Positions 22,013 to 45,182 of a DNA stretch of 62,293 nucleotides are shown piece after piece. Origin of the DNA: an uncultured Agathobacter sp. Its GTDB lineage: Bacteria > Bacillota > Clostridia > Lachnospirales > Lachnospiraceae. Every line of letters begins with the position of its first letter. The first letter of the stretch is position 1. The notes beneath the pieces are model-generated. The model was not told the DNA's origin and ran no database searches. It saw only the letters and a program-made list of their open reading frames with translations. The stretch covers positions 1 through 62,293 of the forward strand of contig CAMDYX010000008.1 in NCBI GenBank assembly GCA_945910395.1, given 5' to 3'. The translations under genes were made by a program, and so were the position numbers.

Positions 22013-23263
22013 CTAGTTCACCTCTTGACGTCCAACTCGGTTCTGATTATAAGCCGGCAAAAACTCACAATCAAATGACTCCACATTCAAAACGCCCATG
22101 TTTTTTAACTGTTCTTCGATTTCCCGATGGTACATGTTACAAATAAACACTCCCGTATCCTCCGGCAAATCCAATAAACACTCCGGACTTTTCACTTCAA
22201 TCCCATCAATAAATGTGCCCCATCTTGCCGAATTATTATCACAGGTAAATAGCGGCCTATATTTTTCACCAAAGGACCGAATAAAACCTCGTCCCAAATC
22301 GCCGGATCCAAAAAGGACGATATGCTTATATTTTTTTAAAGGCTCTTCTATTTGAATCTGGCTTCTGAAATATTCTGCAATTGTTTTTCCCATGGCAAGC
22401 ACCGAAGGGCGAATCAAAGATGGAGTAGAACGCAAGGTATTTGTCATATCCATGATCAAATCTCCATTAAATTCTATCTCGCGCATGCCACGAATGAACC
22501 CCATCCAATCCGTCGCTATTCCATTTTCATTTACACAGGTAAAAGGTATTGCAGCTATATCCTGATGTCCATCATTCGCTCTCACAATAGCTGCCAGTAC
22601 ACGTCCTCTTAACGTATTGGCAACGTCCTGCATGTTGATTCCACATAAGTTATAGGCTCCTATATCCATACAGAAACCAAATCGTTCCTCACCAAGTCCT
22701 TGCTTCTTGGCGAGTTCGTTCAAATGATCAACCCAATTCGCCGCTTCCGAAGCATCTGAACAAAGACCTCTGATGTAATGGCCTTCCACATTATTGCAAT
22801 GATTAATCAAAAGAATTTTTGATTCAGCATTCGTTAGGGCCCTCGCAAGTTGAAAAAAATATTCCAGATTGATGTCCCACTCACAATCCATCGGCACCCC
22901 AATAGAAAGCGGTTGTGCAATAAATCTTGTAACGCCAAGGCTTTCCGTTTCTCTGATACAATCCACACACAAATCCGTCAGCATCCCATTCAAGTCCGTA
23001 CGCTTTGTGTCTCCTGCGAGAAAAGGTAGCATAGCATATCTTGGATGTACTCCTCTTACAACTATTCCTGATTTCAGATTGGCAATGTCCTTTTTAATCA
23101 GCTCTTTATCTAATTTCTTTTCCCATTGCCTCAGAGTAGCCCCGGAAATATACTTACTCATGTCTAACATCGCATACTCAAATCCTGAGCCTGCAATATC
23201 CATCAATCCCTGATTTGGGAATTCGATTTTCACAATTCCACCTGTGGCACATACAATATTCAC
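22013..23263 (-). CDS. Degenerate epimerase-like TIM barrel fused to a Rossmann-like module
   Basis: The product has 416 residues from a GTG at 23263 (GGAG 8 nt upstream; the GTG overlaps the previous stop as TAGTG). Residues 1-300 align by eye with the neighbouring epimerase, but the metal site is altered: INHCN instead of xEN (N154), MDIGAYN instead of DTGH, VRAND instead of HxHD, MDMTN instead of FET. Residues about 313-400 are a Rossmann-like module (KHIVLFGSGDLGRGF ... GVFICNMYHREIEEQL). I infer a catalytically impaired partner of the intact paralogue, contributing the Rossmann domain or regulation. Confidence 0.75.
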   Translation of the reverse strand: MNIVCATGGIVKIEFPNQGLMDIAGSGFEYAMLDMSKYISGATLRQWEKKLDKELIKKDIANLKSGIVVRGVHPRYAMLPFLAGDTKRTDLNGMLTDLCVDCIRETESLGVTRFIAQPLSIGVPMDCEWDINLEYFFQLARALTNAESKILLINHCNNVEGHYIRGLCSDASEAANWVDHLNELAKKQGLGEERFGFCMDIGAYNLCGINMQDVANTLRGRVLAAIVRANDGHQDIAAIPFTCVNENGIATDWMGFIRGMREIEFNGDLIMDMTNTLRSTPSLIRPSVLAMGKTIAEYFRSQIQIEEPLKKYKHIVLFGSGDLGRGFIRSFGEKYRPLFTCDNNSARWGTFIDGIEVKSPECLLDLPEDTGVFICNMYHREIEEQLKNMGVLNVESFDCEFLPAYNQNRVGRQEVN

Positions 23264-25497
23264 TACTTTTTCTCCTTCTCAATAACTGCTTTGAGTTTTG
23301 TAGAACTAGTTGACTCAGTGTATGGAAAAAATACCAAGTCTGAACCTCTTTCCCTAAGCCATGCCTGCTCCGCCAACCATGTTGGATCATGCTCATAATC
23401 ACTGCCGGAGAACTGCGCATCAAAATGATATTTTCTGTAAACATCACGAGTCCCTGATGACACAATTGGCAGAATGAAGGCCTTATCCACATACTTGCAG
23501 GATTCAACAATTTCCAGACGTTCATTTTCGTTCACATAAGGACCTCTCGCCTTTCCAATGCTTGCCTGCTGGTCGGAGACCACTCCAACAAGTAAAATAT
23601 CGCACTGCTCTTTTGCCCTTCGGAACAGATTCAAATGGCCAATATGGAACAAGTCAAAAACTCCTGCAATGTAACCAAGATGATACTTTTTATCAGCTTT
23701 GACATTCTCATTCACTTCTGCATCCTTACATTGACGCTCCACCTTCTCAATTACAGTATCAGACACCGGTCTGTCAATATTTGGATCATACACTCCATAA
23801 TAGCGAACCCCCATATGTTTCAGTTGAAGCAATACAGAGCTATACTGTTTGATACAAATAATTACCTTAAAGCTGTCCGGCTCAAGTGTTTCCAAAATAT
23901 CTGGTGAACATACTTCAATCCCATCGACAACATTCCCTTGCTTGCTCCTATTATTATCCAATAGGGAAACAACAGAGACCTTCTCTCCATATTCTGCTAC
24001 AAATTTTTTCGCCCACATTCCGCTGCCAAATACAAATACCTTTTTACCTTCAACATCAGAAAGTAGATTAATAAAAATCCGGTTGTACTCCTCAACGGAA
24101 AAATTGGCTTTTTGCCGATTCATATTAATGACAGCCGGGTCCGCAAGATGCTGACTGTTAAATGCTACCAATACAGCTCTATTTCGTAGCTTTTTTATAT
24201 ACGTGTCACCCATCGTTCGAAATACACCCAATTTTTGTTCCATGCCGTATCTCTGAGTAAAAAAAGCTATGGGCACAATGCTCTCTATCGCCTTGTCACC
24301 CATATAAATGATGTCCAAAGCTCTGGCAAGAACAACTTTAATGGGATAATTTTCCTCACAAAACTCTTGATCAAAAGCAACGAAATGGCCATCTTTATAA
24401 AAACAATTCAACGGAACAAGATCTATATATGCCTTTTCAAAAAAAGGGCCAAGCTCCGCCTTGTCATTCTCGCTTTCCTCTACTTCACAAGACGATGCCA
24501 GAATCATGTCGAGAAAAGTGCATGTCTGCCTTATAAATTCATCCTTATTTTGAAATGCAAGCCCTCTCAAATATTCCAATGCGGTAGGTGCTTTCATATA
24601 TGGCATTTCTACTTCTGTCAATGGAATTCCATCATATACTCCCATCTGGCCATACTCCATGGGGACAACAGAAATGCCTCTGTCTGCCAGCTCCGAAGTA
24701 TGCCGGAGCAACGCATCCATTCGTGCATTTCCACTTGGATACAATGCCATTTTTTTTACGACTTCATTCTTTTGAATTAGTGTAGCGGTAGCGTTTTCCT
24801 CTCCCCGATCCATGGAAACTGTCACATGATTTACCTCGTAAAAAGTACCATCCATTGTACAATCAATGAGATATGCATTCGCCATCTGATGAAACATTCC
24901 ATTTTGAATTAAGCTATCATAAATCTGCGGAACATTCAGAAAAATGGACTGTGGGTTGTTATACAATGGCGTATATCGAATTGCAAGATTCTCTTTCGGA
25001 AGATAATCCCACGCATAAATCTGTTGTGGCATAGCCAGTCCCGGAAGGATGGAATATCCTCTCCTCCGGCAAAATCCTGCCTCATCCAAAAAGCGTTCTA
25101 TTTCAAAACGAGCATAGCATCTCCCCGCCAATGCCTGTTTGTCCTGTTCTGCCAGATTATAATAATTCTCAATTCCGTCAAAATTTCTATCTGTATAAGG
25201 ATCATGATCCCCCGCAAAATAGCACAGTGCCAGACGATTTTCACATGCCAAAAAGAGGTGACCATCCGGTTTCAAATCACCTCTTAAATCTGCTAATACA
25301 TTACTCGGGTCATCTGCTTCCTCTAACACACGAACTGCGATGATGTAATCATACGGAGCATTTACCTTCTCCACAACGCCCCTTCGCAAAATGTCCTGTT
25401 TCAATTCCTTCGGGCAATCCCCGGCAAAAAATATGCTTGCTCCAGGGGTCCATGGATACCAGTTCAAAAGACCATTGACTAAATCTTGTTCTACCAT
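23263..25497 (-). CDS. Multidomain protein: methyltransferase-like, kinase-like, Rossmann module, cytidylyltransferase
   Basis: A 744-residue fusion. Residues 1-185 resemble a class I SAM methyltransferase whose first glycine-rich motif is poor (ASIFFAGDCP) but whose VLADLRGDLKPDGHLFLACE block is clear. Residues about 225-430 have a kinase-like catalytic pattern, YIDLVPLNCF (D359, N364) followed by AFDQEF (D376). Residues 485-570 are the recurrent Rossmann module (VFVFGSGMWAKKF). Residues 606-744 are a TagD-type nucleotidyltransferase with GVFDLFHIGHLNLF (HIGH 618-621) and STSSTKL. Kinase plus cytidylyltransferase would phosphorylate and then CDP-activate an alcohol, as LicA and LicC do for choline; the substrate is inference. 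Confidence 0.75.
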   Translation of the reverse strand: MVEQDLVNGLLNWYPWTPGASIFFAGDCPKELKQDILRRGVVEKVNAPYDYIIAVRVLEEADDPSNVLADLRGDLKPDGHLFLACENRLALCYFAGDHDPYTDRNFDGIENYYNLAEQDKQALAGRCYARFEIERFLDEAGFCRRRGYSILPGLAMPQQIYAWDYLPKENLAIRYTPLYNNPQSIFLNVPQIYDSLIQNGMFHQMANAYLIDCTMDGTFYEVNHVTVSMDRGEENATATLIQKNEVVKKMALYPSGNARMDALLRHTSELADRGISVVPMEYGQMGVYDGIPLTEVEMPYMKAPTALEYLRGLAFQNKDEFIRQTCTFLDMILASSCEVEESENDKAELGPFFEKAYIDLVPLNCFYKDGHFVAFDQEFCEENYPIKVVLARALDIIYMGDKAIESIVPIAFFTQRYGMEQKLGVFRTMGDTYIKKLRNRAVLVAFNSQHLADPAVINMNRQKANFSVEEYNRIFINLLSDVEGKKVFVFGSGMWAKKFVAEYGEKVSVVSLLDNNRSKQGNVVDGIEVCSPDILETLEPDSFKVIICIKQYSSVLLQLKHMGVRYYGVYDPNIDRPVSDTVIEKVERQCKDAEVNENVKADKKYHLGYIAGVFDLFHIGHLNLFRRAKEQCDILLVGVVSDQQASIGKARGPYVNENERLEIVESCKYVDKAFILPIVSSGTRDVYRKYHFDAQFSGSDYEHDPTWLAEQAWLRERGSDLVFFPYTESTSSTKLKAVIEKEKK

Positions 25498-25515
25498 TAA
25501 TTTCTCACTCCATAA

Positions 25516-26841
25516 CTACTGACACAACTCATCATACATTGTAATCAAATCCGGTATTCCATCAATTGAAACAATATGGTCATCGCTTATTCCCAACTCT
25601 ATTAATTGTTTTTTTATCTCTTCCCTGTAACGCTTATTGGTAATCAACCATTGACTGTTTTTGTAGTTCCTTGCAGCCTCTTCGACGCTTAATACGAGAT
25701 ATTGTTCTTTATATGTATTTTGAATCGAACCATCATTATCGCAAACTGCTTCAATAATCTTTTCTTGGCGCATTAATTGTACCACTAAAAGCTTCTCAAA
25801 ATATTTTCCTGCACCAACCACAACATATCCATTATTTTTTCTCGCCCTTCGAATTACTTCTAAAAAACGCTGTTGGTCTACCTCTTGTTGTTTTTCATAT
25901 GTATTAATTGCTTCAGAAGATAAAAGAAATAGTGCATTATCCTTGTCTTCATCCGAACAATCCGGACTTGATAGAACGTCTTCCATTTCTCCAACAATTT
26001 CCTGTCGGAATAACCTTCTGCTCCTGTCGGAAAGTCGAAGCATATTCCACCGGTAGATTCTTAATTTAGTCGTCCGGACTAGTCGCTCATTTTCTTCCGT
26101 ACTCAAATGGTTCTTTTTCAGATAATTCTCTATATATGTAAATTCATCTATAACACATCTATATTTTGAATCGCACTTAACAGACGATTCCCTTCTATCC
26201 GTCCGATAATGATAAAAACAATCTGATATATATACGCAAGTTGCAGCAGTCAAGCCCACTAGAATGGAAAAACTAGTATCTTGAAATGACGCGCCCGGAG
26301 TTTCATTAAACCAAAGTCCCTTAGATAATAAAAACTCCCGTCGATAAATTCCCGACCATATATGATTAATGTCAGCAAGGCGATATTCCACTTGTTTAGA
26401 GAGATCTAGAACTTGACCATTTACAAAATCCGTTACCTTTTTCGTTACTTTCAAACACATTTTCTTACTTTTATGTTCAAAAAATTCTACATAACCGGAT
26501 TTGATAAAATCAGCATTGGTTTCTTCTGCAATCTTACATAAAGCCGTGAACATACCTGGTGTCACGAAATCATCTGTCTCAACAATGCCGATATATTCAC
26601 CCTTCGCCGCCTTTATTCCAAGATTCATCTGATATCCATAACTCTTTATGGCAGATTTAATCACTCTTATCCGGTCGCCTCTCGCCGCGAATTGTTCAAT
26701 AGTCTCCAAAGTCCCATCGGTTGATCCGGCATCAACGCATATTATCTCCATATCTTTCATTGCCTGTGTAATAACACTTTGAAGACATTCCTCTATGTAT
26801 TTTGCAACATTTAGTGAAGGTAATATAATCGATAGTCTCAT
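25516..26841 (-). CDS. GT2 glycosyltransferase with C-terminal Rossmann-like module
   Basis: A 441-residue protein. The N-terminal GT-A domain (about 1-240) begins RLSIILPSLNVAKYIEECLQ, with the nucleotide-binding VDAGSTDGT and the metal-binding VETDDF (DxD-like) motifs. Residues about 335-420 are the Rossmann-like module (GYVVVGAGKYFEKLL ... SQWLITNKRYREEIKKQL). No membrane segment, so it is a cytoplasmic transferase. It follows another GT2 by 51 bp in the same direction. Donor and acceptor are unknown. Confidence 0.88.
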   Translation of the reverse strand: MRLSIILPSLNVAKYIEECLQSVITQAMKDMEIICVDAGSTDGTLETIEQFAARGDRIRVIKSAIKSYGYQMNLGIKAAKGEYIGIVETDDFVTPGMFTALCKIAEETNADFIKSGYVEFFEHKSKKMCLKVTKKVTDFVNGQVLDLSKQVEYRLADINHIWSGIYRREFLLSKGLWFNETPGASFQDTSFSILVGLTAATCVYISDCFYHYRTDRRESSVKCDSKYRCVIDEFTYIENYLKKNHLSTEENERLVRTTKLRIYRWNMLRLSDRSRRLFRQEIVGEMEDVLSSPDCSDEDKDNALFLLSSEAINTYEKQQEVDQQRFLEVIRRARKNNGYVVVGAGKYFEKLLVVQLMRQEKIIEAVCDNDGSIQNTYKEQYLVLSVEEAARNYKNSQWLITNKRYREEIKKQLIELGISDDHIVSIDGIPDLITMYDELCQ

Positions 26842-26892
26842 GCCGTTATCTCCAAATTTTCAAGTTGATTATTGCTTTCTCTATCACATTCT

Positions 26893-28080
26893 CTAAATCC
26901 TATAGGATATAGGTTTGTTTGAAATGATTTTGTGTTCCGGCACACCATATTGCATAAGTTCCTTTTTCATCTGTTTTCGTACTTTTTCATCAACAGCTGC
27001 AAGAATTACAACATCGTAATGCAAAGATTTGATCTCATTTATAGAACAGGGTTCATCATTCCTCCTGAACTTTTCCAAACTTTTTTTATCCGTCCATGCA
27101 ACCAATCTGTATTGTCCACTTTTCTTTGCATATTTAACAAATTGCTTTCCGACTTTACCGGCCCCATGAATAATAATATTGCTTCCAATTTCTATCTCCA
27201 TATTTGGAAAACAAAATACTTGACTTGATACTTCTATTCCTAAAATGTTTTTCTCAATAGCTTTTAAATATGCCTCTACATAATAGTCAATTTGCTCTTG
27301 AATTCTCGGGTTTCTCTGCATTTCCTCTGCAATACTATACATACATTTTTTTAGTGTCAGAAGTTGCTCAAATGATTTCATTTCAAATTTGCGATTCTGA
27401 GAATCCGCATGTTGCTCATAATGATAAAAAGCTTGATTAATTATGTAAATATAGTTTGCTTCCATCAGTAAAGATAAAACAAAAGCCCCATCTTCACCAA
27501 ATGTCAATTTTTCATCTATTCTTGATATTGCCCGTATCGCTACTTCGCGCTTTATCAGCTTACAACAAACAGATGTCGTTATGGCATTAGTTTCTCTTTC
27601 TAAATCATAGACAAAATTAGGTAAGATACGGTCTTCAATTTCTTCTCTTCCATAGCAACCTTCCACAACGCCATCACACAACACATAACTTCCCACAGAG
27701 TTTGATAAATAATCAAAAAATAACCCTGAAGAAATAATATCTATTTTTTTGTTTCGGGCATAGTGAACCACCAAATTTTCACAATATTTTTCTTCTATCC
27801 AATCGTCTCCATCAATAAAACAAACTAACTCGCCCTTTGCTATATCAAGTCCTGCTTTTCTCGCAGACACCGTTCCTGCATTCTTTTTACGGACTATTCT
27901 AGCCTCTCTATGATGCTCCAACATCTTATCGCATATGATAAATGAGTTATCCGATGAACCATCATCAACTACTATAATTTCAATATCACTATACGTTTGG
28001 TGTAAAACGCTATCCAAGCATCTTTGAATATATTTTTCACAATTATAAACAGTTATAATCACGCTCAATGGTATGTCCAT
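26893..28080 (-). CDS. GT2 glycosyltransferase with C-terminal Rossmann-like module
   Basis: A 395-residue protein. The GT-A fold is shown by LSVIITVYNCEKYIQRCLDS, VVDDGSSDNS and FIDGDDWIEE (DxD) within the first 105 residues, then FGEDGAFVLSLL (the conserved ED motif) near 215. Residues about 300-390 are the Rossmann-like module (NIIIHGAGKVGKQFVKYA ... DVVILAAVDEKVRKQM). It belongs to the same operon as its neighbours on both sides. Confidence 0.9.
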   Translation of the reverse strand: MDIPLSVIITVYNCEKYIQRCLDSVLHQTYSDIEIIVVDDGSSDNSFIICDKMLEHHREARIVRKKNAGTVSARKAGLDIAKGELVCFIDGDDWIEEKYCENLVVHYARNKKIDIISSGLFFDYLSNSVGSYVLCDGVVEGCYGREEIEDRILPNFVYDLERETNAITTSVCCKLIKREVAIRAISRIDEKLTFGEDGAFVLSLLMEANYIYIINQAFYHYEQHADSQNRKFEMKSFEQLLTLKKCMYSIAEEMQRNPRIQEQIDYYVEAYLKAIEKNILGIEVSSQVFCFPNMEIEIGSNIIIHGAGKVGKQFVKYAKKSGQYRLVAWTDKKSLEKFRRNDEPCSINEIKSLHYDVVILAAVDEKVRKQMKKELMQYGVPEHKIISNKPISYRI

Positions 28081-28158
28081 ATTGTTTATCCTCTTATAGT
28101 TAAACCTACAACTATTATTGAAAATTTTTTACCATCATTACTAAATTCGCAATGATAA

Positions 28159-29391
28159 TTAGAATTTTATTTTGTTGTAAATGGTATATTGCGATTCTAT
28201 TCCAAGTTTCCTAATATTTCCAACAATCGCCTTACAATTCTCCTTATTTGCAGCAATGATAATCCCATCGTTTTTGCCCAAATTAACTTCATTAATAGAC
28301 TTTATTTCAACTCCATTTATTTCTTTCTGTTCTGTACTGTCAGTAACTAAAAAACTCTCAATATGAATATTCGAATTTGTCAATAGTTTCAAACAATCTT
28401 TCCCATACTCCCCTGCGCCATAGATATAAATGTGCTTATAGCCTTTAGAAAACTCAAGCAGTTGTTTGAGAGTAACTTTGAAACTATCCAATTCACATAT
28501 GTAACTTATTCCATACTGTTCCTTTAATACGCCAAACGATTTAGATAATGCATTTCTCAATATTTGAATATAGTCTGCCGCATACAGATCCGTCATTACC
28601 CAACCAGAAGTATATCCAGCATCTTGGACTACATAGGGAAAAACTCTCTCTATTGCATGACTTATTGTTCCATCGTTTGCTAAGGGCTCCTCTGGAAAAT
28701 CTTCATATTTCCACTCATATCGCATCATTTTTTTCAGCGCACTAACTCTTGCCCAAAAAACTGTTCCTATTGCGATAGGTGATTCATTAATATTGAGTTC
28801 TTCGCCTACTCCTAACATGCGACATAATTGTTTCGTATTTTCAAAATTATTCGACCATGCATCTAAATATCCCGCCGAAAATCTATCACTCACAAAAATA
28901 GGCGGTACAAGTAATCCTAATTCTGGTTTTTCTTCAAAAAGCTCAATGATATTATATATGTATTCTTTGGATCCAATCATATTTTCCCATAATGATTTTC
29001 TCCATTCAAGTGTGTCATTGTATCGTTCTTCGTATTTTTCTTTTTTATCATGTAAAAAGCAGACATAATCATATTTTTCTATCATTGATTTAGCTGCAAC
29101 TAGGAAAGAAGATATATCACGTCCTCTATTCTGTTTCCGAATAAATTGAATAGACAAGGATTTTTGATTTATTTTTTCCAACGCCTCTTTAATTTTTTCA
29201 TCCGAAAATGTCACCAAAATATCGCATAAATCAGACGGAATTAAGCGCAGATAATTAAAGTACCACTCAATATCTTCTAGATAATGTAAGTGGATAATAA
29301 CTACGCTTTTGACGCATTTTTTTTCATATCGTTGCTTATTTAAAACAGTCGATAACACATAAGTATCTGGACCTTTTTTTTTATTCTCCAT
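28159..29391 (-). CDS. RgpF-like (rhamnan synthesis F family) protein with Rossmann-like module
   Basis: The product has 410 residues. ATG 29391 (MENKKKGPDTYVLS) is chosen because AAAGG lies 7 nt upstream; a TTG at 29415 would overlap the preceding gene by 20 bp. The body has the RgpF signature regions: VVIIHLHYLEDIEWYFNYL, RKQNRGRDISSFL, YVCFLHDKKE, and GTVFWARVSAL near 225. Residues about 315-405 form the Rossmann-like module (HIYIYGAGEYGKDCLKLL). RgpF-type proteins extend rhamnose-type polysaccharides and are thought to act as glycosyltransferases. Confidence 0.82.
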   Translation of the reverse strand: MENKKKGPDTYVLSTVLNKQRYEKKCVKSVVIIHLHYLEDIEWYFNYLRLIPSDLCDILVTFSDEKIKEALEKINQKSLSIQFIRKQNRGRDISSFLVAAKSMIEKYDYVCFLHDKKEKYEERYNDTLEWRKSLWENMIGSKEYIYNIIELFEEKPELGLLVPPIFVSDRFSAGYLDAWSNNFENTKQLCRMLGVGEELNINESPIAIGTVFWARVSALKKMMRYEWKYEDFPEEPLANDGTISHAIERVFPYVVQDAGYTSGWVMTDLYAADYIQILRNALSKSFGVLKEQYGISYICELDSFKVTLKQLLEFSKGYKHIYIYGAGEYGKDCLKLLTNSNIHIESFLVTDSTEQKEINGVEIKSINEVNLGKNDGIIIAANKENCKAIVGNIRKLGIESQYTIYNKIKF

Positions 29392-29395
29392 TATT

Positions 29396-31093: not shown

Positions 31094-31106
31094 AAATTAA
31101 TTCCTC

Positions 31107-32594: not shown

Positions 32595-32603
32595 TTCGCC
32601 ACC

Positions 32604-33791: not shown

Positions 33792-33811
33792 TGTTATACC
33801 TCTCAAATCTT

Positions 33812-34630: not shown

Positions 34631-34637
34631 ATCATAA

Positions 34638-34665: not shown

Positions 34666-34683
34666 CTCCTTTCCATTATTCTT

Positions 34684-34697
34684 GCGACTCCATTCGC
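34684..34697 (-). repeat. 14-nt leader motif, copy 1
   Basis: GCGAATGGAGTCGC (minus strand) is identical to 36896-36909. It can fold as a 4-bp hairpin (GCGA/TCGC). Both copies lie between a sigma28-like promoter and a terminator-like hairpin in front of a glycan gene. Confidence 0.6.
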
Positions 34698-34734
34698 GCC
34701 AAATCCCAAATAGGCTTATTCTTTTCCGTTATAT

Positions 34735-34762
34735 ATATCGGTTAACTATACTCTAATCTTTA
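34735..34762 (-). promoter_or_regulatory. sigma28-like promoter upstream of the licD-type operon
   Basis: TAAA (34759-34762) and ACCGATAT (34735-34742) on the minus strand, 16-bp spacer. Sigma28 consensus is TAAA-N15-GCCGATAA; the -10 element matches well and the spacer is one base long, as at the flaG promoter. Confidence 0.6.
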
Positions 34763-34803
34763 CTATTTTGCATATCAGATTATATCTTTTTGATATAACC
34801 ACA

Positions 34804-35718: not shown

Positions 35719-35733
35719 ACTTATTTTCCTATC

Positions 35734-36825: not shown

Positions 36826-36840
36826 TTTTTTCTCCCATTC

Positions 36841-36869
36841 AAAAAGGATCCCGCATCTATGCGAGATCC
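36841..36869 (-). terminator. Terminator-like hairpin in the leader of the epimerase pair
   Basis: Stem of 10 of 11 pairs (GGATCCCGCAT at 36846-36856 with ATGCGAGATCC at 36859-36869) followed by TTTTT on the minus strand, then the Shine-Dalgarno and ATG at 36825. It lies downstream of a sigma28-like promoter, so it looks like an attenuator. Confidence 0.65.
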
Positions 36870-36895
36870 CTTCTACTCTTTTTCTCTCGTATCCG

Positions 36896-36909
36896 GCGAC
36901 TCCATTCGC
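36896..36909 (-). repeat. 14-nt leader motif, copy 2
   Basis: GCGAATGGAGTCGC on the minus strand, identical to 34684-34697 and in the same relative place between promoter and hairpin. Confidence 0.6.
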
Positions 36910-36962
36910 ACAATGCAAATTCCATTTTGCTCACTATATCTTACTGTTATTTCTATTATAGT

Positions 36963-36990
36963 TTATCGGATACTTCATTACAAATACTTA
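36963..36990 (-). promoter_or_regulatory. sigma28-like promoter for the epimerase pair
   Basis: TAAG (36987-36990) and TCCGATAA (36963-36970) on the minus strand, 16-bp spacer. The -10 octamer matches seven of eight consensus bases; the -35 is one mismatch from TAAA. Confidence 0.55.
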
Positions 36991-37006: not shown

Positions 37007-38182
37007 TTACCATTTATAAGCCTCTGAACTGCGGATCGCGGTAACTACCTCTGACCATCCGGCACCCTCGATTGCATTATAGAATTCTTTGCTGATCTCC
37101 CGGTTTGGAATATAGACCTCCTCTTTTTCAAAGTCATAGGCCAGATAACCTAAATGCACCAGCAATGTCAGCACATCATCCGCATTTTCAAATGTTGTCA
37201 TGTCATTACAAAATCGTCCGGTATTAATATGTTGACGGTCGCCTGCAAGCATCCTAGTCACCATATCCTTAAGTCCGGCATAATTCATTTCAATGTAGGA
37301 ACGCAAAGCCTCATAAGTCTCGGTTTTTGTCCAATAGCTGTCAAACACCCCACTGAGAGTTGCCTCTACAACCGCTTTGGGATTATAAACAGATTTTACC
37401 TGCAAAAATGAATAGCCATCATACCACGCCTTCATGTCCGCAAAGCTTCTATTATATTTTTCACATAGCTGCCGAACCTCCGTCTCCGTAAAGCCCACAT
37501 ACTCCTCCATCTCGCGTGGATTGGTCATGGAAAATTCTAAAAACATGTTCAATGCAGAATGACTTCCATACTTTTTGATGGGAAGAATTCCCGTCATATA
37601 GACAAGGGCTGTATAGGATTTGTCTTTTAACCAATCTCTCAGGAAATCAAGATACTGCTTCTGTTCCTGCTCCGCTCCCTTTTTTTCCCTGAAAATGCAA
37701 TCCCATTCATCGATGAGAATCACGAACGGAATCTTTTCCTGATTAAAAATATCCTGTAGCGTAAAGGTCAGATTATTCTCATCAAACAAGACCACGTCCG
37801 GATACTGTGCCCTGATATCAAATAACAGTCGTTTTTTTAGCATGGTAAGCATCTCATCCACATTTCCGCTGTTACTTAAAAACTCCTGCATATTTATACT
37901 GATGACATTGTATTGATTCAGGTGTTTTTTATATCCTTCTTTTTTTGATATTTTTAACTTTTCGAACTGTCTATTTGAATCGTTAAATCTGCCATAATAA
38001 GCGGCAAGCATATCAAGTGCCATGGACTTCCCAAAACGACGTGGTCTGCTTACGCACAAATACTGCTGATTCGTCCCCAATACGCTGTTGGTATACCCAA
38101 TCAGTTCTGATTTATCAACATAGATTTCAGAATTCAATGATCTCTGGAATTTTTCATTGGTAGGATTCAGATATATTCCCAT
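37007..38182 (-). pseudogene. Truncated AAA-ATPase-like protein (nuclease domain missing)
   Basis: The product has 391 residues from ATG 38182 (MGIYLNPTNEKFQRSL; GGAAGG 8 nt upstream). The N-terminal AAA-ATPase-like domain is complete: YVDKSELIGYTN, the Walker A region VSRPRRFGKSMALDML, Walker B-like FVILIDEWDCIF, and the linker typical of the family (MTNPREMEEYVGFTETEV). Family members normally run past 500 residues with a C-terminal PD-(D/E)XK nuclease domain; this one stops after NAIEGAGWSEVVTAIRSSEAY, where that domain should begin. The stop lies 17 bp from the sigma28-like promoter of the glycan genes. Likely a broken, mobile-type gene. Confidence 0.7.
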
Positions 38183-38249
38183 GAAGAACACCTTCCTTTA
38201 TTCTCTGCATGCATTTATATTATGATTATATCCGAAAATGGCTCTTGTG

Positions 38250-39998
38250 TCATTCATAAATCTCTGGCATATTAGTAAACACATCCGTCACGCCCCACAG
38301 TGAAAATTCGCGCAAATCGATTTTCTGTGGCTTCTGTTCTGGGAAAAAGGCTTCTATCCCATTCCATGCACGAACCGGCTTTCCTTGCCAATGCTCGGGT
38401 ATCGCGCAATCTAGTCCTCCAATACTTGGATGAAGTGCATCTGCATTTGCATAATCTCCCCATTTGATGCAGTCACTTAAGTTTGCTGCAAGCATGCCCG
38501 TCTTACAGGAGTCATCCAGTTCTTTCATTTTCTTAACGGATTCTGCCCAGAAGGAGGAATAAATGATATACTCTTCCAAGTTGTACTTTTTCACCAATTC
38601 CAGCGTTTTTTCTTCGATTCCCTCATAATGAATGGCACTAGTCTTTAGTTCAATATTAATCAGCAAATTCTTCTGTTCACAATATGGCTTTAACACTTCA
38701 AAAACTTCTTCCAGTGTCGGGATACGAACTCTGCTTTTATCCGGATACAGATCTTCATTGACCCCTCTCATTGGAATCTGCTGCAATTCCTTAAGGGTAT
38801 AATCGCATAGTCTGCCTTCAGTAGTCGTGATTCGTCCCAATGTCTCATCATGAAATACCACAACCTGACCATCTTTTGATAGCTGTACATCCAGTTCGAT
38901 TCCCTTTACTCCCGGAATCTTTGCTGCTTCTTCAAAGGCAAGTAGCGTATTTTGTGGGTACTTCATACACATACCACGATGCGCCCAAATACCAACCATC
39001 GCCTTCTCTTGCTCTGATGCAACTTTTCTAAGCGGAACATCCGCCTGAAGAAACTGCTCAATTACATGAACTGCACTAAGTGTCTCTTCTTCTGTGACAC
39101 CGGCTCCAATTGGTTCTCCTTCACAGTCTCGAATAAATCCTATGATTTCATAGATTAGGCCAGCACCCAGATAGTCAAATTCATACCTTTCTCTTCTGTT
39201 CGGATCTTCATAGCGCACTTCAAATTTTTTCGTCAGCCACCATGGGGATTCCGCCAGAATATAACCCTTCGTCCCTGAGATAAGCAACTGTCCTTCCGAC
39301 TTAACACCAAGTCCCATCTTGGCAGTTGCCATACCATTTTCGTAGGTAAATATCAACTTTGTATATTTATCTACGCCATTCGGTGCATGAATAGATTGTG
39401 CCTGCACTCCTGTATAATCACACCCCATTAATTTAAAAATCGGAAGCATGCAATATGCTCCCAACTCTGCTACGCTTCCACCGGTTTTGACATCCACGAA
39501 TTCCCGATTGCAGGTACTTTCTAACTTTGTGAAAGCAGCCTCCACATCACAGATTTCCCCAATCACACCACTTTGCGCTACTTCAAGCAATTTGAGAAAT
39601 CCCGGACAATAAGAGGTCTTTAGTGCCTCCCGGAGCACAAGCCCATTCTCCTTTGCTAGGGCAAACAATTCCTCTGCCTCCTCTAGTATAAGAGTCATCG
39701 GTTTTTCACACAATACATGCTTTCCTGCTTCAAGAGCGGCCTTTGCATACACATAGTGTGTCTCGTGCGGGGTTGCGATATATACGGCGTCGCACTGATT
39801 CCATAATACATTCAAATTCATTGTTGCAATTGGACTTTTTTCAACACCATAATCTTTGCAATATGCAGATACAAATTTTTCTGCGCTATTCTCATGGGGA
39901 TTATAAACACAGGTCAGCATTGCATCCTGTGTCATCAAAATATCCTTCACAAATCGTTGTGCTATTCGGCCTGTACCAATCATTCCGAATCTTATCAT
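38250..39998 (-). CDS. Gfo/Idh/MocA oxidoreductase fused to glycerophosphodiester phosphodiesterase
   Basis: A 582-residue fusion. Residues 1-335 are a Gfo/Idh/MocA oxidoreductase: FGMIGTGRIAQRFVKD (nucleotide loop), IATPHETHYVYAKAAL, HVLCEKPMTL (EKP motif). Residues about 340-582 are a GDPD domain: WAHRGMCMKYPQNTLLAF, GIELDVQLSKDGQVVVFHDE (the His, Glu, Asp, His set), RIPTLEEVFEVL. The ATG overlaps the stop of the preceding gene by 4 bp. GDPD enzymes cut glycerophosphodiesters; joined to an oxidoreductase in a glycan operon it suggests remodelling of a polyol-phosphate substituent. Confidence 0.85.
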   Translation of the reverse strand: MIRFGMIGTGRIAQRFVKDILMTQDAMLTCVYNPHENSAEKFVSAYCKDYGVEKSPIATMNLNVLWNQCDAVYIATPHETHYVYAKAALEAGKHVLCEKPMTLILEEAEELFALAKENGLVLREALKTSYCPGFLKLLEVAQSGVIGEICDVEAAFTKLESTCNREFVDVKTGGSVAELGAYCMLPIFKLMGCDYTGVQAQSIHAPNGVDKYTKLIFTYENGMATAKMGLGVKSEGQLLISGTKGYILAESPWWLTKKFEVRYEDPNRRERYEFDYLGAGLIYEIIGFIRDCEGEPIGAGVTEEETLSAVHVIEQFLQADVPLRKVASEQEKAMVGIWAHRGMCMKYPQNTLLAFEEAAKIPGVKGIELDVQLSKDGQVVVFHDETLGRITTTEGRLCDYTLKELQQIPMRGVNEDLYPDKSRVRIPTLEEVFEVLKPYCEQKNLLINIELKTSAIHYEGIEEKTLELVKKYNLEEYIIYSSFWAESVKKMKELDDSCKTGMLAANLSDCIKWGDYANADALHPSIGGLDCAIPEHWQGKPVRAWNGIEAFFPEQKPQKIDLREFSLWGVTDVFTNMPEIYE

Positions 39999-41344
39999 TT
40001 CATCCTCTCTCCGCTTCGTTTACTCATGAACAGCTCCACAATTCTTGACATTGCAATTGATTCTTCCTCGGTAAGCTTGTAGTCTTTTCTTCCGGTACCA
40101 TTGATTTTCCCGACAAATTCACTGATCTCATATCGAAGACCATCTCCTTGAAAGGAAGGTTCAAAATGCTCAATATCCGTTGGGTCCTCTCTTCGCACCT
40201 CAAACTTATGCGTCAGCCACCACGGAGATGGCGCAAGGATGTACCCCTCAGTTCCTGCCATTACCAGTTCTCCTTCCGATTTCACGCCTACACCCATTTT
40301 TGCAGTTGCCATACCGTCTGCATAACGCAACTGAATTTTCGTATACAAATCAATGCCATCATCTCCCAAGATACTGTCTATTTGCACATCTGAATAATTG
40401 GTTCCAAATAATTTAAAAATCGGAAGCAGCGTGTATGGCGCAAATTCCAAAAAGGCTCCTCCATATTTTGCGTCTGTTCTCTCTCTGGATCCAATGGCAG
40501 CCAGTCTCGTATAGCAAGCCTCTATGTCTCTTATTTCTCCAATCTTTCCGCTTTTTGCCACATTGATCAACTGTTGAAATCCGGGACAATATGCCGTTTT
40601 GATAGCCTCCATCAAAACAAGCCCTTTTTCTTTTGCCATATGATACAGTTCCATAGTCTCCTTGTGAGTAAAGGCCAATGGTTTCTCACTTAATACATGC
40701 TTTCCATGTTCAAGTGCCGCTTTTGCATACGCATAGTGGGTCTCATTTGGTGATCCAATATAAATGGCATCTGTTCTCTTCCAAAACTCTTCCATATCAT
40801 CTGAATAAACTTCTATTCCCTCTTCTTGCTGAAATCGTTTTGAACTCTCTTCTTCCGGATTATATGCACATTCGATTTCAAGGCCACTAACGTATTTTGC
40901 TTCTGAAATAAAGCGTGGAGCTATGCGACCTGTTCCAACAATTCCTAATCGTACAATTGGGAATTTTTCTTTTCGAATCATGGTAGAAGAAATATTTGCT
41001 GTTCTCTCTAAATAAACCACTTCACAATACTTCTTCAGATAATCATAGTGTCCTTTCCAATCAGATCCCAAAACAAAAACATCAACCCCATACTTTTGGA
41101 TATCCTCTACCTTTTGTCCCTCATGGTCTTCCACTATAATTTCATCTGCAAATCCTGTCTTTCGGACATTCTCCACACGCTCTAACAACGGGTCCACAAC
41201 ATTCACTTTTCCTCTTGCTTCATCAAAATGCTCCGTTGTAACACCTACTATCAGATAGTCTCCTAATGCTTTTGCTCGCTCCAATAATTTATAATGTCCT
41301 TCATGAAACAAATCATAGGTTCCATATGTAATGACTTTTTTCAT
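39995..41344 (-). CDS. Cytidylyltransferase (TagD-like) fused to Gfo/Idh/MocA oxidoreductase
   Basis: A 449-residue fusion. Residues 1-128 form a glycerol-3-phosphate cytidylyltransferase-like domain: KVITYGTYDLFHEGHYKLLE (HEGH 14-17), KVNVVDPLLERVENV, FVLGSDWKGHYDYL, ANISSTMIR. Residues 130-449 are an oxidoreductase: LGIVGTGRIAPRFI, HVLSEKPLAF, YILAPSPWWLTHKFEV. Such a pairing recalls ribitol-phosphate synthesis, where a reductase and a cytidylyltransferase (TarJ/TarI, fused in Bcs1) work together; here both partner folds differ. The product is probably a CDP-polyol or related donor for the LicD enzymes nearby (inference). Confidence 0.87.
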   Translation of the reverse strand: MKKVITYGTYDLFHEGHYKLLERAKALGDYLIVGVTTEHFDEARGKVNVVDPLLERVENVRKTGFADEIIVEDHEGQKVEDIQKYGVDVFVLGSDWKGHYDYLKKYCEVVYLERTANISSTMIRKEKFPIVRLGIVGTGRIAPRFISEAKYVSGLEIECAYNPEEESSKRFQQEEGIEVYSDDMEEFWKRTDAIYIGSPNETHYAYAKAALEHGKHVLSEKPLAFTHKETMELYHMAKEKGLVLMEAIKTAYCPGFQQLINVAKSGKIGEIRDIEACYTRLAAIGSRERTDAKYGGAFLEFAPYTLLPIFKLFGTNYSDVQIDSILGDDGIDLYTKIQLRYADGMATAKMGVGVKSEGELVMAGTEGYILAPSPWWLTHKFEVRREDPTDIEHFEPSFQGDGLRYEISEFVGKINGTGRKDYKLTEEESIAMSRIVELFMSKRSGERMK

Positions 41345-41355: not shown

Positions 41356-42375
41356 CTAAATGTATTCTACAATTTTATCTCTCTCTCGATTCATAATATT
41401 AATAACACGCTTATCGTCGGGTGCATGCATGTGTAATTTGTCAAGAATGTTTACCCACAATAAATCGTTCTGCTTATAAAACATATCCACATTCTTCAAT
41501 CCCTTTTCAATATCGAATGGTAGTAGCAAATCCTCTTTGTACCCTCTCCTATCTGGATTGAAAAATTGCGTTTTCGAAAAATTTCTTTCGGCTGTTTGTC
41601 CAAAAATAATCCGTCGTATTTGATCAAAAGTTTCTCTGTAGAACTCACGTTCAAAATGTGCCCCCTGCAGGTTATCCCATATATTAAAATCTCCCATAAA
41701 ATACTTTGATAAATCAATTACCCATGGATTATATTTATCAATAACATACTGTTCAAGTTTTCTTCCGACTTCGTTAAATCTTGGTAATGGATGAGAGCTA
41801 CCTCGAAATCTCTCTGGTATATATTCTACCGTTCCCTCTTTTGTCATATAGTAGGAGTTACAGCGAAAACAATTCAGAATGACATGATTACTATCATATT
41901 TTTCCATCATCTTTTTAAAAAAGTCATCTACATATCCAATCCACTCGTCCCATGGTTGGTCATAAATTCGAAACTTCGTTATCTCGCTCCCATATTTTTC
42001 ATCCAGATTCGTCCGAAAAAATTCATTTGCCTGGGGGGCAAAAATTGTATCGTGATATCTGCATTGATTCATATGCATATCCATAAAATCAATAACAACA
42101 TATTCTGCATCAGAATCTAATAATAACGACAAAGTTTCTTTGTTTAGGTTTTGTTTGAGTGAACGTATCGCTCCTTTTTCTCGAATACAAATATCTTTTA
42201 GATTTTCTACCTCCTCTTTTGGGAAGGGGGCGGGATACATTGCACATACAATATTCTGCTTATCCAAAAAATAGTCTATGTCTAGCCTTTCATCTAAAAC
42301 TCCATGCTCACTCTGTTTCCCATCTAAAAGAGATATTCTAGACACACAACTTCCCAAAACAGTAATCTTTATCAT
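41356..42375 (-). CDS. DUF6270-like protein of glycan clusters
   Basis: A 339-residue protein. The N-terminal ITVLGSCVSRISLLDG motif is characteristic of a family found in polysaccharide and flagellin-glycan clusters (DUF6270); the central VVIDFMDMHMN and C-terminal SSHPLPRFNEVGRKLEQYVI regions also fit. The GSC opening resembles the nucleophile loop of SGNH/GDSL esterases, so an acyl- or phospho-ester function is possible but unproven. The ATG overlaps the stop of the upstream licD-type gene by 4 bp, showing tight coupling. Confidence 0.7.
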   Translation of the reverse strand: MIKITVLGSCVSRISLLDGKQSEHGVLDERLDIDYFLDKQNIVCAMYPAPFPKEEVENLKDICIREKGAIRSLKQNLNKETLSLLLDSDAEYVVIDFMDMHMNQCRYHDTIFAPQANEFFRTNLDEKYGSEITKFRIYDQPWDEWIGYVDDFFKKMMEKYDSNHVILNCFRCNSYYMTKEGTVEYIPERFRGSSHPLPRFNEVGRKLEQYVIDKYNPWVIDLSKYFMGDFNIWDNLQGAHFEREFYRETFDQIRRIIFGQTAERNFSKTQFFNPDRRGYKEDLLLPFDIEKGLKNVDMFYKQNDLLWVNILDKLHMHAPDDKRVINIMNRERDKIVEYI

Positions 42376-43355
42376 TTGATATTCTCCAATATCTTCATTT
42401 CTATCAGCTGTTCCATCATCTCATCTGAAAGCTTCGTCTGAAACTCTTGCTCCATCACTTCCTTAAGACTTTTCATTTGTTCATTATAAAACGGATAATC
42501 GTGGGAGCTTCCAACATTTTTTGGTGTCATATAATCCGCTCCATAATAGTTTTTCAATATCCGATCATACCCTGAAGGAACAGGTATTACGGTATTCTCA
42601 AAGGGCATCTCCATATAATTTTCATAACACTCTCTTGGATATCGAAATTTCTTTCTATCGATACAAAATCCCATCATACATCCAATCTGAGTTGTACTAT
42701 CGTTTACATATTTTGCACTTAATAAATCAAATATTTTCTTCACTTCATGTTGGAGTCTATTATTGTAATCAATTGAAATTCCATAGGTTCTTTCTATTTC
42801 CCTCATTAAAGAAATTACATCCCTATCATAAGGTTCCTTTTCTGGAATGCTAGCTTCAACTCTTAGCAAAAAATCTAATGAATCTACCAAATTATCAAAT
42901 TGCCTTTCATCATCTGGCACATTATCAATGGGGAATATATCAATTCCAACAACATATGGGCACCTATGAAATTTTTTTAAAAAGACCTCATCAAAACACA
43001 TATGTCTTCCATTTATAACTCTTGCTTTAACCACATCATCTGTCGGATCACTATACACACTTTTTATCTCAAACCACTTACCAAGAACTTTCGGTGCTTT
43101 TTCGAGAAACTCCAAATAGTCTCGTCTGAGCATACAAATATCTAAATCATCATCCCACGGAATAAATCCTTTATGTCGAACAGCACCAAGCAAGGTTCCG
43201 AAATCTGCGTAAAAATGTAGATTCAATAAATTACATGCACTTCGAATTTCTTCTAATACTTCTAGCTGTGCCGCCCATGCACGTTTCATCATTGAAGAAA
43301 TAGTAAATTCCTCTCGTTCCTCCGCCAGAAAAAAATCCTCATCAAAATGTATCAT
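42372..43355 (-). CDS. LicD-family phosphotransferase
   Basis: A 327-residue protein with the full LicD motif FGTLLGAVRHKGFIPWDD, then DLDICMLRRDYLEF and GIDIFPIDNVPDD. The N-terminal MIHFDEDFFLAEEREEFTIS extension is shared with the next gene's product, so the two are recent paralogues. Expected to transfer a phospho-alcohol from a CDP donor. It is the second gene of the operon that starts at 45182. Confidence 0.9.
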   Translation of the reverse strand: MIHFDEDFFLAEEREEFTISSMMKRAWAAQLEVLEEIRSACNLLNLHFYADFGTLLGAVRHKGFIPWDDDLDICMLRRDYLEFLEKAPKVLGKWFEIKSVYSDPTDDVVKARVINGRHMCFDEVFLKKFHRCPYVVGIDIFPIDNVPDDERQFDNLVDSLDFLLRVEASIPEKEPYDRDVISLMREIERTYGISIDYNNRLQHEVKKIFDLLSAKYVNDSTTQIGCMMGFCIDRKKFRYPRECYENYMEMPFENTVIPVPSGYDRILKNYYGADYMTPKNVGSSHDYPFYNEQMKSLKEVMEQEFQTKLSDEMMEQLIEMKILENIK

Positions 43356-43367
43356 TCCTAATCTCTC

Positions 43368-45182
43368 CTAAATAAGATTATACATCTCTAGTAACTCTTT
43401 ATACCCCTTTGGTATCGGAACTGATATGTTATTCCAAAGTACGTCTTCTACTTCTTCAAACCATTCACTTCTATAAAAGATGTTCTTGCCCTCACGAACC
43501 TCATCTAAAATGTACAGATAATCACTTGATTCACAGTTCCTTCCTGCCACTATATCAGCCGCTTTATAAAACGCGTTTCGCAGATTCCCATCTATATTAA
43601 AATCTATTCCTATCGTTCGCTTCCAATCTTCAACAATTGCTTGTTCTTCTTCTCTATATGGTGGTTTTACTCCAACATTACCTGCTGTTTTTAGTAATCC
43701 TAGTATAATAGAATTACGCGCTTCTTCCAGTTTCGCATCATTACATACCGAATCCAGTGCCTGTATAGTAATGCCAGTTTCTTCCTTAAATCCATGAAAT
43801 CTTGCGCCATACTTTTCCCAATCTTCCCTTAATCCATCTGTGACAATTTCCAGTTCTAACTTTTCAATGTTGTCAGATATATATATACTATAAAAATCAA
43901 ACCACACTCCCAATTCCTCTGGAAGGCAATTTACAAAGGTTATATAATCTTCTCTCTTCATCGCAAATTCAAGATTACCAGAACTGAAATAACTCCCCTT
44001 AATAATACTAGATAGCGTTTCTCCTATCGCAAATAGTTTCAAATTATGATTTTTACATATCCGATTAATCTCTACAAATACTTCCATTTGTGCCGCTAAT
44101 CTTCGTTTTGCAACTTCGTCTTCTTTAGATGAAGTTGCAAAAAAATCTATACTATATTCTATACGTGGCTTGCAGTCTCGGTTAAGAAATTTCCAATAGT
44201 AATCAGTCGATATGGCCTTTATATGCTCCCTTGCGGCTTCTACTTTTCCGTTATATTTAATACTTGCTATTTCTTTAATCAATGTATTATAAAATGGATA
44301 ATCATGTCCTGCACGGACATTCTTCGGAACCAAATAATCATCACCGTATTTCAGACGAAGTACCAAATCATAATTCTCTGGAACTGGTACAGTAATATTT
44401 TCAAAAGGAATTCGAATAGCCTTATCGTATATTTCTTTCGGAATATAGTAATCTCTTCCACTTCCCAGACATGGCATCTCCGTCAAATAATCTGCATCGT
44501 TCTCTCTGTATAATGAATATACTTCATCAAGCAATATATACAATTCCTGTTCTGTAGGATTCTCCTGTGAGAATTCAATTTGACAAATCTTTTTTATCAT
44601 GTCTATTCGTTCTCGTATCATGGCAATCCCCTGAATATACTCCTTACTTGTAGGAGCATATTCCTTAATTTCTTGTTTTAAATGACAAACTTCCGTAATT
44701 ATTACTGTAGCATCTATTTGTTCCTTTTCTAAAGCTTTTTCTCTTGGCACATAGTCAAGAGAGAACACATCAATCCCTGTCACAAGAGAAAAACCATGGT
44801 ATTCTCTAATTCTCTTTCTTTCTGCAATCGTCGATATTCCATTAACCACCTTAATTGCATGCGCCCCCCATTCAGGTTCCGAATATACACTCAGACACAT
44901 CAATTCATCCTGGCAGTTCTCAATTACCTGCATAAATCTCACTAGGTCTTGACGACGCATACAAATATCCATATCATCATCCCATGGAATGAATCCACGA
45001 TGTCGAACTGCGCCCAGCAAAGTTCCCCAATCCGCAAAATATGGAATATCATACTGCATACATAATATATCTATTTTACTTAAAAGCTCTATCTGTGCTG
45101 CCCATGCATTTTTCATCATAGCAGAAATAACAAATCCATTTCTTTCTTCCTGCTCAAAAAATTCTTTTTTAAAGTTTACCAT
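43368..45182 (-). CDS. Tandem LicD protein with a degenerate second domain
   Basis: The product has 604 residues. ATG 45182 (MVNFKKEFFEQEERNG) is chosen because it aligns with the start of its paralogue (MIHFDEDFF) and GAGG lies 5 nt upstream. The first domain (about 25-300) is intact: DWGTLLGAVRHRGFIPWDDD, MDICMRRQDL. The second (about 350-604) keeps the scaffold (AQMEVFVEINRICKNHNLKL) but has IGETLSSIIKGSYFSSGN and LEFAMKREDY where the catalytic GTLLGAVRH and WDDDxD should be. It is probably a pseudo-domain with a structural or acceptor-binding role. First gene after fliC1; no clear own promoter seen. Confidence 0.85.
   Translation of the reverse strand: MVNFKKEFFEQEERNGFVISAMMKNAWAAQIELLSKIDILCMQYDIPYFADWGTLLGAVRHRGFIPWDDDMDICMRRQDLVRFMQVIENCQDELMCLSVYSEPEWGAHAIKVVNGISTIAERKRIREYHGFSLVTGIDVFSLDYVPREKALEKEQIDATVIITEVCHLKQEIKEYAPTSKEYIQGIAMIRERIDMIKKICQIEFSQENPTEQELYILLDEVYSLYRENDADYLTEMPCLGSGRDYYIPKEIYDKAIRIPFENITVPVPENYDLVLRLKYGDDYLVPKNVRAGHDYPFYNTLIKEIASIKYNGKVEAAREHIKAISTDYYWKFLNRDCKPRIEYSIDFFATSSKEDEVAKRRLAAQMEVFVEINRICKNHNLKLFAIGETLSSIIKGSYFSSGNLEFAMKREDYITFVNCLPEELGVWFDFYSIYISDNIEKLELEIVTDGLREDWEKYGARFHGFKEETGITIQALDSVCNDAKLEEARNSIILGLLKTAGNVGVKPPYREEEQAIVEDWKRTIGIDFNIDGNLRNAFYKAADIVAGRNCESSDYLYILDEVREGKNIFYRSEWFEEVEDVLWNNISVPIPKGYKELLEMYNLI

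Follow-up and report, generated by a model that had tools for sequence, protein, structure and literature searches.

A candidate CDP-alcohol pathway with LicD transferases in a probable flagellar glycosylation island of an uncultured Agathobacter sp.

The synthesis of cytidine diphosphate (CDP)-ribitol uses an IspD-type cytidylyltransferase (CT) and an MDR-type reductase in TarI/TarJ, and a CT fused to a reductase (Bcs1) in Bcs1/Acs1; the LicA/LicC/LicD phosphocholine pathway follows a logic of kinase, CT, and LicD. Here we analyse an island of glycan genes in an uncultured Agathobacter sp. (genome 3.14 Mb, 127 contigs, 89% complete), located in a stretch of 62,293 nucleotides that is the whole of contig CAMDYX010000008.1 (the window), and encoding a fusion of a TagD-like CT to a Gfo/Idh/MocA oxidoreductase (CT-Gfo), a second oxidoreductase fused to a GDPD domain (Gfo2-GDPD), and LicD proteins. 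The explanation that we favour, with moderate confidence and on the evidence of sequence, is a flagellar glycosylation island in which a CDP-alcohol would be synthesized and used by LicD to decorate flagellin glycan.

The island resembles the Lic system in its kinase, CT, and LicD logic, and resembles TarI/TarJ and Bcs1/Acs1 in combining a CT with a reductase, but belongs to neither group. In particular, both island CTs belong to PF01467 and neither to a MobA-like (LicC-type) family, and in place of the TarI/TarJ families the island has PF01467 and GFO_IDH_MocA. As a counterpart of the choline kinase LicA, the island has a putative APH/kinase-like fold, whose catalytic Asp position varies in relatives. 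In CDP-glucitol (HS5.18/HS5.17) and CDP-mannitol (Mnp1/Mnp2) synthesis, as excerpts of PMC10918830 describe it, the CT acts on a ketose phosphate and an NADPH-dependent reductase then acts on the CDP-ketose to yield the CDP-polyol; HS5.18 and HS5.17 are two separate proteins, HS5.17 being an SDR, whereas the island has a TagD-type CT and a Gfo/Idh/MocA oxidoreductase in one chain. The nearest biological precedent, with different enzymes, is the type A system of Clostridium difficile (CD0240–CD0244), in which, according to excerpts of PMC10714395, the flagellin sugar carries a phosphate-linked small molecule, a phosphorylated amino acid is used, and a CDP-activated donor is proposed. The same excerpts mention threonine, a nucleotidyltransferase compared there with GDP-mannose pyrophosphorylase and LicC-type CTs, a phosphoserine-phosphatase-like protein, and the TagF-like CD0244; the island, in contrast, has a TagD-fold CT fused to Gfo, a GDPD, and LicD transferases. 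A shared feature is that relatives of the island carry a TagF-like protein next to CT-Gfo. PMC13317340 names Butyrivibrio and Paenibacillus as genera with flagellar glycosylation. In the portions of the open-licence literature that we searched, neither LicD nor a CT-Gfo fusion is described in connection with the modification of flagellin, which is weak evidence of absence, and searching for flagellin, LicD, and glycosylation together led only to Campylobacter phosphorylcholine genes. The enzyme combination appears to be undescribed, with a chemistry that resembles known pathways; most likely it carries out a process of a known kind, CDP-alcohol phosphotransfer to a flagellar glycan, with a different enzyme set.

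Domain calls were made by Pfam scans of the window's open reading frames (ORFs), whose coordinates agree with those of an earlier sequence-only reading of the same DNA. That reading had described a CT-oxidoreductase fusion overlapping by 4 bp with an oxidoreductase-GDPD fusion, and four LicD domains, all of which are recovered:

39995..41344, minus strand: CT-Gfo, 449 aa, TagD-like CT (residues 1–128) and Gfo/Idh/MocA oxidoreductase (residues 130–449) (Pfam CTP_transf_like and GFO_IDH_MocA)
38250..39998, minus strand: Gfo2-GDPD, oxidoreductase and GDPD (Pfam GFO_IDH_MocA and GDPD)
33812..34630, minus strand: LicD, 272 aa (Pfam); sigma28-like site 105 bp upstream; relatives adjoin CT-Gfo in some loci
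42372..43355, minus strand: LicD, 327 aa (Pfam)
43368..45206, minus strand: double LicD, 612 aa (Pfam, two stretches, and genome search); second domain weak

The conserved fusion is the centre of the argument. CT and Gfo are fused in 98 of 99 loci, the remaining locus having Gfo alone; the 99 loci comprise the best 80 of 87 scanned relatives, 18 taken from whole genomes by position, and the window. The scan peptides were drawn from both halves of the protein, and ranking and cut-offs favour full-length relatives, such that short or unfused ones may be among the seven left out; three loci that are the window's own gene (L081–L083) were excluded from the tallies. The nearest relative found, in a Lachnospiraceae metagenome-assembled genome (MAG), is 87% identical. 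The loci come from Lachnospiraceae of the rumen and gut and from records under the names Selenomonas, Treponema, Paenibacillus, and others. Four come from MAGs labelled outside the Firmicutes (L042 and L050, Treponema; L069 and L073, Chitinispirillia), which suggests horizontal spread, although MAG binning errors remain possible.

The TagD motifs are HxGH and RTxxIS(S/T)T, and their residues H14, G16, H17, R114, T115, and S119 are retained in 98/98 fusions. The CT signatures HxGH, RGK, DW, and RT...S are all intact, and the invariant residues of the 98 fusions are D11, H14, H17, R44, G45, K46, R56, D67, D95, W96, R114, T115, and S119. TagD/GCT is the closest sequence to the CT domain (2b7l, Staphylococcus aureus glycerol-3-phosphate cytidylyltransferase, 124 bits), yet CT-Gfo scores 108.9 bits against the TagD equivalog cut-off of 165.4 (TIGR01518) and is not a member of that family. 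Two aligned positions also differ: the position of R63 of Bacillus subtilis TagD (1coz) is Gly in 97/98 fusions, and that of W74 is not kept. Both positions presumably belong to the acceptor pocket. We take CT-Gfo to be an active subfamily of its own in which the acceptor pocket has changed, because its catalytic residues are invariant while these two positions are changed; the pocket did not fix the identity of the substrate. The oxidoreductase half (97.6 bits) likewise retains the EKP motif of Gfo/Idh/MocA oxidoreductases (E220 in 135/136, K221 in 124/136, and P222 in 135/136, Gfo2 paralogues counted in).

Gfo2 is a paralogue of the Gfo part of CT-Gfo (48.6% identity), and the GDPD domain fused to it, one of two in the genome, scores 110.3 bits against a cut-off of 23.6. 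GDPD motifs are HR, ExD, and H; the corresponding H340, R341, E368, and D370 are present in 43/44 and H383 in 44/44. At position 349 the window protein has Q, whereas 41/44 have E. Many of the relatives' loci encode GDPD as a gene of its own, and others have it fused to Gfo2. In one locus (L060, 11530–12297), a single frame of 255 aa covers GDPD and a further CT, which may reflect a fusion or an artefact of sequencing. GDPD may supply a precursor, by splitting glycerophosphodiesters into glycerol phosphate and an alcohol, or may remove the group from the glycan; we tentatively prefer supply, since the fusion partner of the domain is a metabolic oxidoreductase.

These data bear on one alternative, namely that CT-Gfo makes ordinary CDP-glycerol, that LicD adds plain glycerol phosphate, and that the Gfo and TIM-barrel proteins serve an unrelated sugar. 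The CT domain is TagD-like, and GDPD enzymes release glycerol-3-phosphate. Excerpts of PMC5109656 moreover report tagD in a Geobacillus flagellar island. The sub-threshold TIGR01518 score, the altered R63- and W74-aligned positions, and the near-universal fusion to Gfo, in a search that favours full-length relatives, argue in the other direction, and we regard plain CDP-glycerol as rather unlikely.

For the favoured CDP-alcohol reading, the transfer step would fall to LicD. The island's four LicD domains (PF04991) are above cut-off, the second domain of the double protein narrowly so (23.8 vs 22.6 bits), and a search of the 3.14-Mb genome gave no other LicD match. Their DxD motif is largely kept in relatives (D54 in 77/85, D56 in 78/85), and the 272-aa protein is a probable CDP-alcohol phosphotransferase.

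Gene neighbourhoods link CT-Gfo to such enzymes. We counted neighbours within 10 kb in those of the 97 non-window fusions whose two flanks each exceed 4 kb, comprising 55 near-type loci and 11 loci of a distant clade. In the near-type loci, LicD is present in 34, a protein of about 850 residues in 27, either in 44, and both in 17. GDPD occurs in 34 of these loci, TIM barrels in 9, a second Gfo in 26, and a further CT in 25; the further CTs that were scored singly mostly resemble the CT of the island's 744-aa protein. In the distant clade, LicD is present in 6/11 loci. The 850-residue family matches PF04464 (Glyphos_transf) in 5/22 members at E <= 0.01, by which it is related to the CDP-glycerol glycerophosphotransferases; profile searches of PDB sequences with this family and with that of the 744-aa protein yielded no transferase and no kinase. 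The presence of LicD and of the 850-residue protein ties CT-Gfo to two unrelated kinds of CDP-alcohol-using enzyme.

Several loci place this machinery beside flagellin. Domains of GT2 with TPR repeats are regarded as flagellin glycosyltransferases in PMC13317340. Among cultivated carriers, which include Butyrivibrio hungatei DSM 14810 (L024), Lachnospiraceae bacterium KH1P17 (L018) combines flagellin, LicD, CT-Gfo, Gfo-GDPD, and the TIM pair within a single locus. One locus (L054) has the order flagellin, GT2-TPR, LicD, CT-Gfo, and a short 850-residue-family member without a Pfam match of its own; another (L098) has flagellin, a GT2 whose TPR match is sub-threshold, the 850-residue protein, CT-Gfo, GDPD, LicD, and a further CT. 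In the closest relative (L001), a 1024-aa GT2-LicD-LicD protein (4863–7937), which appears to be a glycosyltransferase fused to the proposed phosphotransferase, starts 2.2 kb past the flagellins.

In the window, the genes lie between flagellins, as the sequence-only reading had stated, and sigma28-like sites occur inside the island:

45328..46137, minus strand: flagellin, 269 aa, the presumed glycan acceptor (Pfam); sigma28-like site 119 bp upstream
46684..47493, minus strand: flagellin, 269 aa, 98.5% identical to the 45328 flagellin (Pfam); sigma28-like site 113 bp upstream
19065..19853, minus strand: third flagellin, short and divergent, at the island's downstream end (Pfam, blastp)
34736..34762, minus strand: sigma28-like site before the LicD gene 33812 (pattern search)
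36964..36990, minus strand: sigma28-like site before the TIM-Rossmann gene 35734 (pattern search)

The pattern TAA[AG]-N15-17-CCGATA, loosened after the flagellin sites had been seen, gives six window sites, all on the gene strand, two of them inside the island and others before both flagellins and FlaG (shuffled sequences: mean 0.65, maximum 3, 0/100 reaching 6). The sigma28-like promoters proposed earlier for part of the island are matched, under the loosened pattern, by sites before two genes.

Co-occurrence across genomes is consistent with the same link. Flagellin is present in 46/47 CT-Gfo genomes (47 of the 80 loci used), and at least 17/48 genomes, own included, have CT-Gfo and flagellin no more than about 35 kb apart on a shared contig, many contigs being short. 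Of 250 genomes drawn from the family, 129 have flagellin; carriers were called at E <= 1e-100, such that weaker carriers fall among the non-carriers. Near-type fusions (at least 57% identity) occur in nine genomes of the draw, own included, and all nine are flagellated, compared with flagellin in 116/228 non-carriers (Fisher p 0.004, uncorrected for kinship and with groups set after identities were seen). A match without a CT domain (G217, locus L101) stands outside the near-type count. The distant clade (42–48% identity) is found in 12 genomes of the draw, 3 of them flagellated. In a midpoint-rooted tree of 95 tips, from which fusions shorter than 380 residues were excluded, the distant group forms one clade (support 1.0; near group 0.72).

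The remainder of the island consists mainly of glycan genes. The minus-strand gene series runs from 45.2 to 19.9 kb, with intergenic gaps of at most 173 bp or small overlaps between principal genes; its last gene ends at 45206, not at the 45182 given earlier. Upstream lie the two flagellins, FlgN, FliS, FliD, and FlaG, then FliW, a flagellin-domain protein taken for FlgL, and FlgK. Enclosure of glycan genes by flagellins is the hallmark by which we call the region a probable flagellar glycosylation island. The further genes are:

19895..21067, minus strand: glycosyltransferase, DUF3880/Glyco_trans_1_2 (Pfam)
25516..26841, minus strand: GT2 and Rossmann domain (Pfam, blastp)
26893..28080, minus strand: GT2 and Rossmann domain (Pfam, blastp)
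28159..29415, minus strand: RgpF-type rhamnan synthesis protein and Rossmann domain (Pfam, blastp)
29396..31093, minus strand: radical SAM/SPASM protein and two Rossmann domains (Pfam, blastp)
31107..32594, minus strand: WbsX-type glycosyltransferase and weakly matching Rossmann domain (Pfam, blastp)
32604..33806, minus strand: GT2 and Rossmann domain (Pfam, blastp)
37007..38191, minus strand: AAA-ATPase_like protein, between Gfo2-GDPD and a TIM-barrel pair (Pfam)
41356..42375, minus strand: DUF6270 protein, between LicD and CT-Gfo, overlapping LicD 42372 by 4 bp (Pfam)

The AAA-ATPase_like protein is perhaps unrelated to the pathway, and its gene may be a mobile insertion. The nearest NCBIfam models to the radical SAM/SPASM protein are metalloenzyme maturases, far below cut-off. 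A FliD_C-like gene of 453 aa (13046–14407, plus strand) lies on the opposite strand, away from the main FliD. No LicB-type permease was found among the Pfam-scanned ORFs.

We tie the CDP-alcohol pathway to flagella because of partial synteny, flagellin co-occurrence, the sigma28-like sites, and the GT2-LicD-LicD protein of the closest relative. The sequence-only reading had proposed phospho-alcohol decoration of flagellin glycan; what is supported, by way of relatives, is a candidate CDP-alcohol pathway feeding LicD and tied to flagella. Several observations weigh against this reading. Neither LicD nor the 850-residue protein lies within 10 kb in 11/55 near-type loci, and flagellin does so in only 12/55. 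One carrier genome (G031) has no flagellin match, two others (G028, G042) have their same-contig flagellin 55 and 80 kb off, and the remaining CT-Gfo genomes have no same-contig flagellin among the matches listed. The enzyme itself is not inherently flagellar, because the distant clade sits mostly in non-flagellated cells. The strict pattern TAAA-N11-17-CCGATA is not clearly enriched (3 sites vs 1.08 expected, 7/100 shuffles reaching 3), nor is GCCGATA alone enriched in the window (3 vs 4.78). The Pfam-scanned window ORFs contain no Maf or TPR match, and the 29 window proteins tested contain no homologue of the 850-residue protein at E 1e-8, which sets the island apart from the C. difficile type A cluster with its TagF-like transferase.

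A second alternative builds on some of these points, namely that a surface polysaccharide or teichoic acid-like polymer is decorated and that the flagellar position is a mere hot spot for glycan islands. The island has WbsX, RgpF, and GT2 genes, kinds that typically serve surface polysaccharides, and the distant clade, mostly in non-flagellated genomes, has LicD within 10 kb in 6/11 loci and aminotransferases in several. The polymer reading is nevertheless unlikely, because near-type fusions track flagellated genomes without exception in the draw, some loci place CT-Gfo beside flagellin and GT2-TPR-like proteins, two island genes have sigma28-like sites, and no polymerase or flippase family appears in Pfam scans of island ORFs. 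Least probable is an amino alcohol phosphate product (a CDP-amino alcohol), such as serinol or ethanolamine phosphate. In its favour are aminotransferases near CT-Gfo, which are HisC/CobD-like in 5 loci (up to about 1.3 kb away) and class V in 4 (up to about 0.2 kb away), and the phosphorylated amino acid of C. difficile type A (PMC10714395, in excerpt). Those aminotransferases are, however, confined to 9/99 loci, of which the distant clade accounts for 7, and no aminotransferase family appears in Pfam scans of island ORFs. Weak HisC-type matches in two further loci (L002, L097; about 48 bits, 3–5 kb off) were not counted. Because of the nine loci, the final alcohol may vary between species.

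A second set of genes completes the favoured CDP-alcohol reading:

23263..25497, minus strand: 744-aa protein, methyltransferase-like, APH-kinase-like, Rossmann, and cytidylyltransferase (CT2) domains (Pfam, blastp, AlphaFold/Foldseek)
22013..23263, minus strand: TIM barrel-like and Rossmann, adjoining the 744-aa gene (no Pfam match; related to 35734–36918 by blastp)
21069..22010, minus strand: xylose-isomerase-like TIM barrel (Pfam)
35734..36918, minus strand: xylose-isomerase-like TIM barrel and Rossmann (Pfam 28.6, below cut-off 31.1); sigma28-like site 45 bp upstream
34804..35718, minus strand: xylose-isomerase-like TIM barrel (Pfam), 36% identical to 21069–22010

CT2 (CTP_transf_like, residues 610–735) is closest to ethanolamine-, glycerol-, and choline-phosphate CTs, and the N-terminus is methyltransferase-like by weak Pfam scores and fold matches. 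The kinase-CT fusion proposed earlier is upheld in its CT; the kinase-like part has weak to moderate fold support. Specifically, residues 172–440 folded alone gave an AlphaFold model (predicted local distance difference test, pLDDT, 75; predicted template modelling score, pTM, 0.76) for which Foldseek placed aminoglycoside phosphotransferases and protein kinases highest (best E 7e-4; only four matches at E <= 0.001, template modelling score about 0.3–0.5). The matches listed for the whole model include methyltransferases, cytidylyltransferases, and Rex-type Rossmann proteins, kinases appearing only with the part folded alone. In relatives, a Lys, an Asn, and a DFG-like Asp are largely kept, while the catalytic Asp position is D, E, or G. 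A kinase-like domain is plausible by fold, with putative activity. Six Paenibacillus/Cohnella loci encode a shorter relative (about 520 aa) in one run with LicD, LicD-Rossmann, and CT-Rossmann genes.

The two TIM-barrel pairs are paralogous (21069–23263 and 34804–36918), one near each CT-bearing gene, each with one Rossmann-bearing member and one without; the Rossmann-bearing members are 30% identical over 281 residues (blastp). We infer that the pair 22013/21069 beside the 744-aa gene parallels the pair 35734/34804 beside CT-Gfo, and that the former, with the 744-aa protein, forms a second CDP-alcohol branch. The Rossmann domain (about 90 residues, GxGxxG...D) occurs in ten copies on nine island proteins (22073–36015): the 744-aa protein, two TIM barrels, three GT2, RgpF, WbsX (weakly), and the radical SAM protein (twice). 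A profile built from these ten finds 11 copies genome-wide, 10 of them in the island, the rarity elsewhere being the informative part. Neither these repeated domains nor the TIM-barrel pairs had been noted in the sequence-only reading. The domain lies within 10 kb of CT-Gfo in 44/55 near-type and 0/11 distant loci, and the PDB sequences closest to it are Rossmann domains from a UDP-quinovosamine dehydrogenase, Rex, and others. Our guess is that it serves docking or the binding of a common ligand.

From the gene content, we infer substrates, reaction order, place of action, and acceptor as follows. The CT domain of CT-Gfo would couple cytidine triphosphate (CTP) to the phosphate ester of a small alcohol or ketose, which would resemble glycerol-3-phosphate but probably differ from the usual substrate of TagD. 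The fused Gfo would oxidize or reduce the carbon chain, either ahead of activation or following it, to give CDP-X; action on a CDP-ketose after the CT, as for CDP-glucitol and CDP-mannitol, is a plausible order. The precursor would come from, or be isomerised by, Gfo2-GDPD and the TIM-barrel pair. LicD would then move X-phosphate from CDP-X to sugars built for flagellin by the island glycosyltransferases, in the cytoplasm and ahead of flagellin export, and the 744-aa protein would provide a second branch, of kinase plus CT, feeding another LicD.

A broader proposal, which we put forward as a tentative possibility, is a widespread undescribed pathway in which a one-chain TagD-type CT and Gfo, with Gfo2/GDPD and TIM partners, would make a new CDP-alcohol that a LicD or TagF-like enzyme loads onto flagellin glycan, and in which the Rossmann domain would act as a tag on nine enzymes, assembling a complex or binding a common ligand.

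Gut Lachnospiraceae flagellins are prominent bacterial antigens. The island names genes to test, and the CT-oxidoreductase fusion is amenable to simple in vitro substrate assays. In the portions of the literature searched, a phosphate-linked flagellin group has been worked out for C. difficile type A only, and the island points to a second enzymatic route.

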